Shown: in pieces, positions 6,510 through 9,350 of the stretch | Numbering within the stretch: position 1 is the stretch's first letter | Layout: each line of letters begins with the position of its first letter | DNA from: a virus | Virus record (IMG/VR): IMGVR_UViG_3300010150_000240 | Coordinates: 1-20,824 of that record | Strand: one strand, 5' to 3' | DNA length: 20,824 nucleotides | Translations under genes and position numbers: made by a program | The notes under the pieces: model-generated | What the model was told of the DNA's origin: nothing | Databases searched by the model: none | The model's input: the letters and a program-made list of their open reading frames with translations, nothing else

Positions 6510-7572
6510 CTGCCCACGTGACGATAGCATATCTAATACCACTTGTTATCTCCTCAATTTTATGAGGGAACATAAAATTAGCTGGAAATATACAAATATC
6601 ACCCATATTCAAATGAGTAATGTACTTATCATAACAGTGACGTAAGGCTCCACCTTCATAGTCTTCATTCAATTGAATGATAATAGTAACTTCTCTATTA
6701 TACTCTGAGAACTGATCGGTATGGTAGTCATATTTTCCTCCAGGAGTATACCTTAGACAATTATATCCTGCATCCATAGAGACCTTAAAATCATCAAACT
6801 CTCTACAAAAATCACGCAGCGCTTTCCTAACATACATATTGATTGTCGAGTCAATAGAATCATCGGGAGTTAAATTTAAATCATCACATAATCTACCTAT
6901 ATCTGTACAAGTTTTACCAGAAGAAACTTCAGCCCTTTTCCATCTGCTTGAGTATTCATCACTAGTTATAACATCCACAATTTCTCCACAAACTTTACGT
7001 GGAACCATACTCCTATAAACTTTAATATAGTCACTCAAATTACCAGTTTTGTTTTGAAATTGACTTTCACATTCTCCACCTAGGAAAACATAATGGTGAA
7101 ATGTTTGAAAATACTCTTCTCCACAGTACTCATCTCTCCAATGAACAGCATTGGGTCCGTCATATATAACTGCGTCACCTGGCTCTAGGTCAATTGATAC
7201 ATCTTTCCCATCTTTATTTTCAATATAAAATTTAGATTCAGCATCTCCATCTAGGTGGATGCTTAAAGATACCTCACAGGCATCTCTATCAGTATGCTTC
7301 TTTAGATCAGACTTATTCCCATAAATTCTACTGTAAGTATATGTTGGTAATAATTTTGGACCACCAATATATTCATTTAAGAACGCAACTTTTTCAGAAG
7401 CAATAGCAGACATCTCACTAAGATTATAGAATGCTCGTCTATTGGGTTCTTCTTCATCAATCACCTCCTTACTATTCCTCATAGAATCAGCTAGCTGAAG
7501 TGCTGTTTCACGTGACAAATATCCTCTAACAACTTTATAAGTGTCACCGATAACTTCTTGTAATTTTGACAT
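6505..7572 (-). CDS. Tandem double-domain 2-oxoglutarate/Fe(II) oxygenase
   Basis: The 355 residues hold two dioxygenase-like domains in series. The N-terminal copy (about 10-165) has the iron motif His93-x-Asp95 (KKHTDRD) and His144 in AVHWRDEY; the usual distal Arg for 2-oxoglutarate is not obvious. The C-terminal copy (about 183-355) is canonical: His284-x-Asp286 (YDYHTDQ), His337 in PHKIEEI and Arg347 in GIRYAIV. Such enzymes hydroxylate proteins or small molecules using O2, Fe(II) and 2-oxoglutarate; the substrate is unknown. The start shares one base with the TAA of the upstream gene. The two copies look like different subfamilies joined together rather than a recent duplication. Confidence 0.85.
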   Translation of the reverse strand: MSKLQEVIGDTYKVVRGYLSRETALQLADSMRNSKEVIDEEEPNRRAFYNLSEMSAIASEKVAFLNEYIGGPKLLPTYTYSRIYGNKSDLKKHTDRDACEVSLSIHLDGDAESKFYIENKDGKDVSIDLEPGDAVIYDGPNAVHWRDEYCGEEYFQTFHHYVFLGGECESQFQNKTGNLSDYIKVYRSMVPRKVCGEIVDVITSDEYSSRWKRAEVSSGKTCTDIGRLCDDLNLTPDDSIDSTINMYVRKALRDFCREFDDFKVSMDAGYNCLRYTPGGKYDYHTDQFSEYNREVTIIIQLNEDYEGGALRHCYDKYITHLNMGDICIFPANFMFPHKIEEITSGIRYAIVTWAV

Positions 7573-8000
7573 TAATCTTCCCAGTAGTGCTTTTTAAAAT
7601 AGCGTCCAAGTATATTATCATTATAGTACATTGGGCTTCCATTGTCCATCTTTTCTCTTAAGACATTGTACTTGAAGAGTGCTTCCGTCTCCGCATAGTT
7701 TGTCTTACCAACGGTCTTATGTAAAGACAATATTTTTCTACTAAAGTTTTCTTTACCAAACTCTTTAGCATCAGACTTTAACTGTTCGTTAGAACCATAA
7801 TATTTCTTCCAATCACTTTCAGAAGTTACTCTACGCTTACCACCTTTAGGCTTTCGCTTCTGAACGAAGTACTTTCTACCCACATACTTTCTACCAGTGA
7901 GCTTATTCTCAATAAGGTATAAGAACCCATAATAATCTTTAATCTTTTTAGAAGTAAAAGGTTTCCCTCTATACATCCATGGGTTCTCATAATCTACCAT
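7572..8000 (-). CDS. GIY-YIG-like protein (possible endonuclease)
   Basis: The 142-residue basic protein has GFLYLIENKLTGRKYVGRKY at residues 25-44, i.e. a G-(F)-x-Y ... YVG variant of the GIY-YIG nuclease core. A Lys/Arg-rich stretch, ESDWKKYYGSN (61-71), ENFSRKILSLHK and a later Glu in YAETEALFK follow. In this superfamily Tyr, Arg and Glu cut DNA. Related proteins occur widely in T4-like phages as free-standing genes, sometimes considered homing or degradative nucleases. No partner intron or interrupted gene is visible here. It overlaps the double-oxygenase start (TAATG). Confidence 0.65.
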   Translation of the reverse strand: MVDYENPWMYRGKPFTSKKIKDYYGFLYLIENKLTGRKYVGRKYFVQKRKPKGGKRRVTSESDWKKYYGSNEQLKSDAKEFGKENFSRKILSLHKTVGKTNYAETEALFKYNVLREKMDNGSPMYYNDNILGRYFKKHYWED

Positions 8001-8029
8001 TGAAGTGGTTTACCGCTTCTTTATATATC

Positions 8030-8185
8030 CTATTCTAAAATCTCTTCCCAGTGATTGGGTTGATGACCACACGTGGCTAATTGTACCTGATAATATACCC
8101 GAACTTCTTCCCAAGTCTTTAATACTACACTCTTTAATGGTGAATGCCAAATTCTATAAGCCATATTATTGAGAGCTATTATCAT
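8030..8185 (-). CDS. Small unknown protein, 51 (or 44) residues
   Basis: ATG at 8183-8185 (or the second ATG at 8164) opens a frame ending TAG at 8030-8032. From the second start the product begins MAYRIWHSPLKSVVL, continues with TWEEVRVYYQVQL and ends QPNHWEEILE. It has Trp/Tyr/His-rich composition, unlike random sequence. It is the first gene behind a strong sigma70-type promoter (8228-8256). No family was recognised and no ribosome site is clear for either start. Confidence 0.5.
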   Translation of the reverse strand: MIIALNNMAYRIWHSPLKSVVLKTWEEVRVYYQVQLATCGHQPNHWEEILE

Positions 8186-8213
8186 TTATTTAGTACTTAG
8201 AGTGACTTATCAC

Positions 8214-8224
8214 CCTTGACAAGG
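8214..8224. repeat. Operator-like palindrome at the predicted transcription start
   Basis: CCTTG-A-CAAGG is a perfect 11-base dyad starting 3 bases after the -10 of the promoter at 8228-8256, so it covers the expected start site. This placement suits an operator; no binding protein is known. Confidence 0.35.
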
Positions 8225-8227
8225 CTG

Positions 8228-8256
8228 ATTCTACACAAAAAAAGACCCCCTGTCAA
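8228..8256 (-). promoter_or_regulatory. Strong sigma70-type promoter nested in a terminator
   Basis: The minus strand has TTGACA (8251-8256, perfect -35), a 17-base spacer, and TAGAAT (8228-8233, one base from consensus). The -35 is in the loop of the terminator at 8237-8269, and the spacer contains its 3' arm and T-tract. Confidence 0.75.
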
Positions 8257-8269
8257 GTAGGAGGTCTTT
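8237..8269 (-). terminator. Rho-independent terminator
   Basis: On the minus strand AAAGACCTCC (8269-8260) pairs with GGGGGTCTTT (8250-8241), with one G-T pair and a 9-base loop. The 3' arm runs into seven T residues (8243-8237). It lies immediately after the stop of the 8273-8716 gene. Confidence 0.9.
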
Positions 8270-8272
8270 ATA

Positions 8273-8716
8273 TCACTCAGTAGCTTCTGTGTCAGATAGC
8301 AAGTAATCAGCAATAGTATCTAGATCAGCAGCAGCGATAGACATTTTAGCCTGAACCCACGCTGGTAGCTGTAGCATCTTGTCCCCATCAATGTATGTCT
8401 TGATGCGTAAGCAAGCATTCTCTGCGGTGGCTATCTGGCGCAGTACCATATATCCTTCTGGATCAGCCTCTAATCCCTGCGCGATGGCTTTAGCCGCCTC
8501 TGAGAGCGGCTGAGTGCCCTCTAAGGCATCTAGAATACCAGAAGCGGACTCTACGGTCATTCCTCTGAGGATTAGATCAATCTCACCGATTGTAGATGCG
8601 TGACCTAAACCAAGTAAGTGCTCTGCGATATCAACATAAATGTCCGCAGATTCTTCATTTTGCTCAGCAATAACTGAACCTTGTAGTGCCAATTCAATAA
8701 GTTCTTCCCTAGACAT
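8273..8716 (-). CDS. Acidic unknown phage protein with C-terminal LPAWVQ segment
   Basis: Start ATG 8714-8716 (MSREELIELALQGS) gives 147 residues. The frame is open further upstream, but that part runs back through a terminator. The body is acidic and helical (IYVDIAEHLLGLG, GMTVESASGILDALEG). The C-terminal 35 residues include CLRIKTYIDGDKMLQLPAWV followed by QAKMSIAAADLDTIADYL. From memory, a similar LPAWVQxK...A...YL tail recurs on marine T4-like phage proteins, possibly as a structural or assembly module. Terminators flank it at both ends (8754-8779 upstream, 8237-8269 downstream), but no clear promoter is seen between 8717 and 8753. Function unknown. Confidence 0.75.
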   Translation of the reverse strand: MSREELIELALQGSVIAEQNEESADIYVDIAEHLLGLGHASTIGEIDLILRGMTVESASGILDALEGTQPLSEAAKAIAQGLEADPEGYMVLRQIATAENACLRIKTYIDGDKMLQLPAWVQAKMSIAAADLDTIADYLLSDTEATE

Positions 8717-8753
8717 TATTTTAAGTAATACTTCATAAAAGTATTTAGACAAT

Positions 8754-8779
8754 AAAAAAGCTCCCCTATTAAGGGAGCT
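8754..8779 (-). terminator. Terminator overlapping the end of the oxygenase gene
   Basis: On the minus strand AGCTCCC (8779-8773), a 7-base loop, GGGAGCT (8765-8759) and six T residues form a strong terminator. The 5' arm encodes the last residues of the upstream oxygenase, and its TAA stop (8769-8771) lies in the loop. Confidence 0.9.
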
Positions 8780-9350
8780 CATACATAGTGAACGCAATAG
8801 TCTTTCTATACGCTTTAGCTAAAGAATTTGGGGCTGACCCTCGATGGTCTCTATGTGCTGCGCATAAACACCCACAGTTAGGTATAAATGGAACATAGTA
8901 ATATTCACCTTCTGTGGTATATACAAATTCCCCTCCCCATAGTGAATCCCAGTTGGTATTAAGAAAAATGACAAACGTCCAACACCCCTCAATTCCATCT
9001 TGATGAAAGGTATTTTCCATACCAGGATATTGTATATTTGTATTGATACGAACTAGAGATAATTTTCTTTTTAATATTTTTTCCGACATTAATTTTATAT
9101 TACTACCAATACGAATAAACGTTAGGTTATCTCCTAACAAATCATCGTTATATGTAATATTAATATTTTTATAGTGATATGGTTTTGATATCGCTAGTCT
9201 TGGTAATATATCAGATGAATCAATTGAATTATTTTTAACAAATAAATTATTGTAGCTGAAATTAAATTCATCATTTATAAGAGTAAAATCAGATATTGAT
9301 AGCACATCCTTAATTTTATATAAGGACGTGCTTATTTCTTTACACTTCAT
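8769..9350 (-). CDS. 2-oxoglutarate/Fe(II) oxygenase, prolyl-hydroxylase-like
   Basis: The 193-residue protein has the double-stranded beta-helix oxygenase signature in its second half: His116-x-Asp118 (TFHQDG), WGGEFVY, the distal iron His (probably His169 in HRGSAP) and Arg182 in KAYRKTIAFTMYE. This pattern resembles prolyl 4-hydroxylase-type enzymes. The N-terminal half is unusual: very rich in Asn, Ile, Lys and Ser, and the DNA is clearly more AT-rich than nrdB next door, hinting at a different origin. The ATG overlaps the TGA of nrdB as ATGA, so it is translated with the reductase. Substrate unknown. Confidence 0.8.
   Translation of the reverse strand: MKCKEISTSLYKIKDVLSISDFTLINDEFNFSYNNLFVKNNSIDSSDILPRLAISKPYHYKNINITYNDDLLGDNLTFIRIGSNIKLMSEKILKRKLSLVRINTNIQYPGMENTFHQDGIEGCWTFVIFLNTNWDSLWGGEFVYTTEGEYYYVPFIPNCGCLCAAHRDHRGSAPNSLAKAYRKTIAFTMYELP

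Follow-up and report, generated by a model that had tools for sequence, protein, structure and literature searches.

A putative sigma-70-type promoter nested within a predicted intrinsic terminator at a gene boundary of a cyanophage genome fragment

Can a single short stretch of phage DNA carry the signals both for ending one transcript and for starting the next? The question is raised by a 42 bp composite element at positions 8228-8269 of a 20,824-base viral record that we analyzed over its whole length (the window), a fragment of a marine cyanophage; its nearest relative, Synechococcus phage S-CAM7 of the Kyanoviridae, aligns to 76% of the window at 85% identity. A first-pass annotation had described a promoter nested inside a terminator here, and all of its coordinates hold, with the element on the minus strand. 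The element lies in the gap between two genes that are also on the minus strand. Upstream is a gene of unknown function (8273..8797, phrog_32745; the listed ORF is 174 aa long from a TTG, and the PHROG profile spans its residues 28-174) whose stop codon abuts the terminator, and downstream is a small gene (8030..8164) that encodes 44 aa, or 51 aa if the ATG at 8185 is its start, and whose S-CAM7 homologue matches phrog_3371. The next gene (7572..8000, minus strand) belongs to the SegE-like GIY-YIG endonuclease family and is annotated "NAD synthetase" in relatives.

Anatomy of the composite element

The predicted intrinsic terminator hairpin (8241..8269, minus strand) has an 11 bp stem (5' arm 8269-8259, 3' arm 8251-8241) and a 7-nt loop, ACTTGAC (8258-8252); its folding energy is -15.1 kcal/mol (0/200 shuffles were as stable), and its stem is the longest among the 30 terminator-like sites found by a scan of the window. 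The T7 tract at 8237..8243 is the putative RNA release zone, and its first three T's are also paired in the stem. The -35 hexamer TTGACA (8251..8256) had been placed in the terminator loop, which is right for five of its six bases (TTGAC) but not for the final A (8251), which pairs to close the loop in the minimum-energy fold. The spacer of 17 bp (8234..8250) reads GGGGGTC, T7 and GTG; as first described, it is thus made of the 3' arm and T tract (followed by GTG) and ends in the -10 hexamer TAGAAT (8228..8233). That hexamer is one base off consensus, which counts against a dual function, and it is TATAAT in sequences L001, L003 and L008.

At the sequence level TTGACA-17-TAGAAT is a sigma-70-like promoter that scores 11/12, one of four matches of that quality in a promoter scan of the window. 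A joint pattern in which the -35, T6 and -10 stand at fixed spacing, with up to 1 mismatch, is seen once in the window where 0.01 is expected, and a looser test for nested composites also finds one, compared with 0.025 in 200 Markov shuffles, five of which had at least one. An Rfam search returned no family above its gathering score, the best being Phe_leader at 23.4 bits where 55 are needed.

Two other composites were seen on the minus strand of the window. One (1518-1487) consists of a short hairpin (CCCC..GGGG), T7, ATGC and TATAAT and precedes a 333-aa ORF (462-1463); it has no good -35 and is of the extended -10 form. The other (15496-15458) is a strong terminator with a T tract that leads directly into the late-promoter motif TATAAATA, a terminator-late promoter composite.

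The leader and the gain and loss of genes at the element

Between the -10 hexamer and the 44-aa gene lies a leader (8187..8227, minus strand) that ends in CTAAATA (8193-8187) and a large part of which is repeated in S-CAM7, in four copies. This box lies between the promoter and the 44-aa gene in 14/14 rows and is close to the late-promoter consensus NATAAATA that passages of PMC2984593 report for S-PM2. The palindrome CCTTGACAAGG (plus strand; CCTTGTCAAGG on the minus strand) at 8214..8224 had been pointed out as sitting on the predicted start. It does lie over that position (~8221) and is part of the dispersed leader, but a functional role at the start site is unsupported, and the dyad is imperfect in S-CAM7 (where it reads CCTTGTCGAGG) and in others. 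Within a seven-row alignment of the locus (the window, three S-CAM7 records and three viral contigs) the palindrome is perfect in the window, L006 and L007 only; it is also perfect in L660 and L663, the latter being the L006 contig. Because S-CAM7 and others do not keep the dyad intact, we rejected a conserved operator or 5' hairpin, and the palindrome is better read as a partly conserved piece of the repeated leader. In the DYDEVF family (below) its AGG half resembles a Shine-Dalgarno sequence ahead of the ATG.

A segment that extends from the -35 up to and including CAGCCTTGTCGAGGTTGATAAGACACTCTAAGTACT is present, with small changes, four times in S-CAM7, at 155141, 209614, 111857 and ~64090. 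Only the copy at 155141 has a terminator within its spacer; the other three have no T tract there. A promoter-leader thus need not include a terminator, and a mobile promoter-leader may have acquired one or shed it. At ~209570-209690 of S-CAM7 (NC_031927; our L341) a leader copy is followed by the hairpin CTCTAAGTACTTAGAG and a terminator, which together look like a small RNA of ~70 nt. The copies at ~111857 and 64090, both on the minus strand of NC_031927, lie on the strand opposite their annotated neighbours, and one of these two is just before the late sigma gene.

Whole ORFs have been inserted at the foot of the element (8269-8277) in S-CAM7, L006 and L007. In S-CAM7 a 444-bp tail-collar gene separates the element from the gene that is its immediate neighbour in the window, with the alignment breaking at 8269-8275, and in L006 and L007 a 45-aa ORF (44 residues) is inserted at 8273-8277. 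There is a second insert in L007, an ORF of ~109 residues at 8185-8207, and L008 has an inserted ORF of ~217 residues at 8000-8012. Our best reading of these alignments is that the foot is probably a tolerated joint for the gain or loss of whole genes. Elsewhere in the window, a gene matching phrog_274 (labelled endonuclease V; 8769-9350, with 8758-8780 on the minus strand) is absent from S-CAM7, and its alignment edge (8768) coincides with another terminator. A hairpin, GAAGCGGTAAACCACTTC, stands just ahead of the GIY-YIG start codon (8002-8019; z -4.3) and is the same in S-CAM7; the ORF insertion in L008 falls at its site.

Might the element then be chiefly a recombination joint, its near-identical copies being crossover points that shuffle gene modules, and its transcription signals serving to make inserted modules viable? 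The insertion boundaries at the foot, the further one just downstream in L007 and the four promoter-leader copies in S-CAM7 all favor this idea. But in the stretches examined the inserts are not flanked by another near-identical copy, the other S-CAM7 copies share ~44-68 aligned bases with the window element, and any neutral intergenic gap would give the same boundaries; we consider the idea possible, though rather unlikely.

Conservation at the locus and recurrence in other genomes

TTGACA, T7 and GTG are common to all seven rows of the locus alignment, in which the -10 is either TAGAAT or TATAAT, and the 11-bp stem is kept throughout (10 bp in L006 and L007). Stem pairing is retained in 97% of cells across 6 distinct orthologues. 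One stem pair differs among the rows (C-G, U-G, U-A), and covariation measured at this locus only, with few rows and one pair changed on both sides, is not significant (100/500 shuffles reach it).

It is the 44-aa gene, rather than the GIY-YIG gene, that the composite accompanies. Each of the 11 homologues of the 44-aa gene on viral contigs (55-100% identity) has a nested composite 69-104 nt upstream, and these composites are built on three unrelated stem types: five (L660-L664) have the window's stem type (GACCTC), another five (L665 and L667-L670) have the stem GGGGGGTGG or GGGAGGTGG with TTGCCA as the -35 (TTGTCA in L670), and L666 has the stem GAGGGGGC with TTGACG. This set overlaps the locus rows, L663 and L664 being the L006 and L008 contigs, respectively, and the L660 protein being 100% identical. 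The ACG-2014f genome carries the second stem form (GGGGGGTGG/GGGAGGTGG type). In a set of seven homologues the composite lies 92-96 nt upstream in six and is displaced by the inserted ORF in the seventh (L007). A link to the GIY-YIG gene was rejected, as only 2 of its 75 relatives with at least 300 bp of upstream sequence have a composite within 500 bp; in L007 and L008 the composite is farther from this gene, behind the inserts.

Comparisons of this kind, in which the architecture is kept on unrelated stems (11/11 homologues) and nested composites in other cyanophages far exceed those in shuffles, give good support to the proposal that RNA folding for termination and a new start use a common set of 42 bases, and a dual use of the DNA appears probable. 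Composites with the -35 in the loop number 4 in S-CAM7, 3 in S-PM2, 4 in P-SSM2 and 7 in ACG-2014f, and there are none in Syn9, a null result that counts against dual function; shuffle averages for these five cyanophages are 0-0.17 (six shuffles per genome). The non-cyanophage T4-like genomes of T4, KVP40 and RB49 have 0, 0 and 1, respectively, and shuffle averages across all eight genomes are 0-0.33.

IMG/VR was searched with the pattern TTGACA-N7-T6-N4-TATAAT and, as a control, with A6 replacing T6. The -35 is inside a hairpin loop in 54 of 112 distinct T6-pattern sites and in 1 of 117 control sites; a stricter count, limited to stems of 6 bp or more whose loops hold four bases of the -35, gives 16/112 and 0/117. 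A slightly different script found 55 hairpin sites; for 50 of these, the other proteins on the contig have their best matches in cyanophages. By a simple nearest-ATG rule the ORFs downstream of the IMG/VR hairpin sites form 19 clusters. When the pattern has T7, a hairpin is present at 4/117 sites in bacterial and archaeal genomes as against 32/47 in the viral subset with T7. Among 60 elements of one large family that are in register 0, 6/8 stem pairs lie beyond all 500 shuffles, a figure that is uncorrected for relatedness.

We rejected a contrast of at least 120 to 0 as a sign of wide recurrence, since it traces to one homologous small-protein family (80 distinct sites). Acidic proteins of 50-80 aa (MDKEKLKLI..DYDEVF; L091, L106, L409 and others) are widespread in cyanophage-like contigs, and their genes often stand behind a nested terminator-promoter.

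These counts bear on whether the element could be a terminator only, its likeness to a promoter being a by-product of a T-rich tract beside an A/T-rich start region. T-rich tails do make TATAAT-like hexamers likelier by chance, and a good -35 is missing from most cyanophage terminator-TATAAT composites (many have 3-5 mismatches), so that the form with the -35 in the loop is a minority. Nevertheless, a TATAAT-like hexamer directly follows 42 of the 134 strong terminators in the five cyanophage genomes, whereas three control positions give 11, 8 and 9 (the pooled figure for T4 and KVP40 is 8/99, with 8, 6 and 5 at the controls); TTGACA, TTGCCA or a close variant stays in the loops of unrelated stems at promoter spacing; and the spacer is 17 in 79/80 elements of one family. 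A terminator without a promoter is, in our judgment, quite improbable. The converse, a promoter only, whose hairpin is a feature of the DNA or RNA that does not terminate transcription, is suggested by the three S-CAM7 leader copies that have no T tract in the spacer (209614, 111857 and 64090) but is very improbable, given the U7 tract and stem kept in every locus row and the orthologues in another genus that bear a new stem with the same T7.

Relation to known systems and proposed mechanism

Promoter early stem-loops (PeSLs) of T4-type phages, reportedly described by Arbiol in 2010 and Comeau in 2014, join a sigma-70-type early promoter to a stem-loop that is an effective terminator; they lie in intergenic gaps, in several copies per genome, and mediate modular gene exchange at sites of gene gain and loss. 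We take RB49 to be their type case. The window element is like them in being intergenic and in joining a predicted sigma-70-type early promoter to a stem-loop with the fold and T7 of a predicted terminator, and its phage, being nearest to S-CAM7 (Kyanoviridae), is T4-like, as cyanomyoviruses are termed in passages of PMC2984593. With regard to copies per genome, S-CAM7 has 4 nested composites and 4 promoter-leader copies, one with a terminator in the spacer. In RB49, however, the promoter follows the T tract and the -10 is 31-45 nt from the stem (11 hits), and T4 has the same side-by-side arrangement (5 hits), whereas in the window the loop holds the -35, and the -10 starts ~8 nt past the 3' arm. 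KVP40 (Schizotequatrovirus) composites resemble the window element in that the hairpin is inside the promoter and the -10 is directly past the stem (4 hits), but their -35 (TTGAC or TTGCA) is stem-paired in the 5' arm. The best reading, drawn from the RB49 and T4 scans, is that the cyanophage nested form resembles PeSLs in kind but probably differs from them in geometry. Passages of PMC4503421 report few PeSLs in S-PM2, and passages of PMC3037559 predict cyanophage promoters and terminators but do not speak of any overlap between them. Among the papers within reach of our literature searches, we recognized no account of cyanophage terminators that carry a -35 in the loop.

We think it quite likely that the element is a gene-block boundary that would end the upstream transcript and start the next one with host sigma-70 polymerase. 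As polymerase arrives from the nrdB side, the 11 bp RNA hairpin and U7 tract would release the transcript at ~8243-8237. As a double helix, the same DNA would be a strong promoter of the sigma-70 type, recognized by host RNA polymerase without modification; the new transcript would begin near 8221 and run into the 44-aa gene and then the GIY-YIG gene, and the downstream CTAAATA box would probably take over the 44-aa gene late. The hairpin loop can carry the -35 because a loop needs no particular sequence, and since a spacer needs only length, its 17 bp can consist of 3' arm, T tract and GTG. According to passages of PMC2984593, cyanomyoviruses have no homologues of alt, modA, modB, motA or asi, and their early promoters should for that reason resemble host sigma-70 sites.

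What the sequences show directly is the anatomy of the element, its conservation and recurrence and the insertion boundaries; actual termination and initiation, their timing and any competition between them are what we infer. A promoter-bound polymerase has a footprint of ~-55 to +20 and would cover the whole hairpin DNA, so termination and initiation should exclude each other in time on any one DNA molecule; competition between the two uses is plausible on this ground. A further idea, which we regard as unlikely, is that of a polymerase hand-off, in which nesting would let the polymerase that releases its RNA, with its footprint over the next -35 and -10, restart at once. The same polymerase would keep or recapture sigma, and each block would pass transcription on to the following one; a polymerase bound at the promoter would in turn stop the next polymerase before the hairpin forms. 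If this is true, the terminator would act as a promoter loader. Passages of PMC6978380 (Kang et al. 2020) report that polymerase, once released, restarts in vitro at a promoter close by after 37% of terminations (55% with added sigma), which makes such a relay testable, although the E. coli units described there are separate and the promoter is not inside the terminator.

If the element is such a boundary, the phage would pack end and start signals into 42 bp by using an otherwise free hairpin loop for the -35, a nested solution that has been retained while the stem sequence was replaced. The element would be a natural substrate for asking whether the next promoter reuses the polymerase that has just terminated, and it may mark fixed joints for gene entry in cyanophages and so help to predict gene blocks in uncultured viruses.
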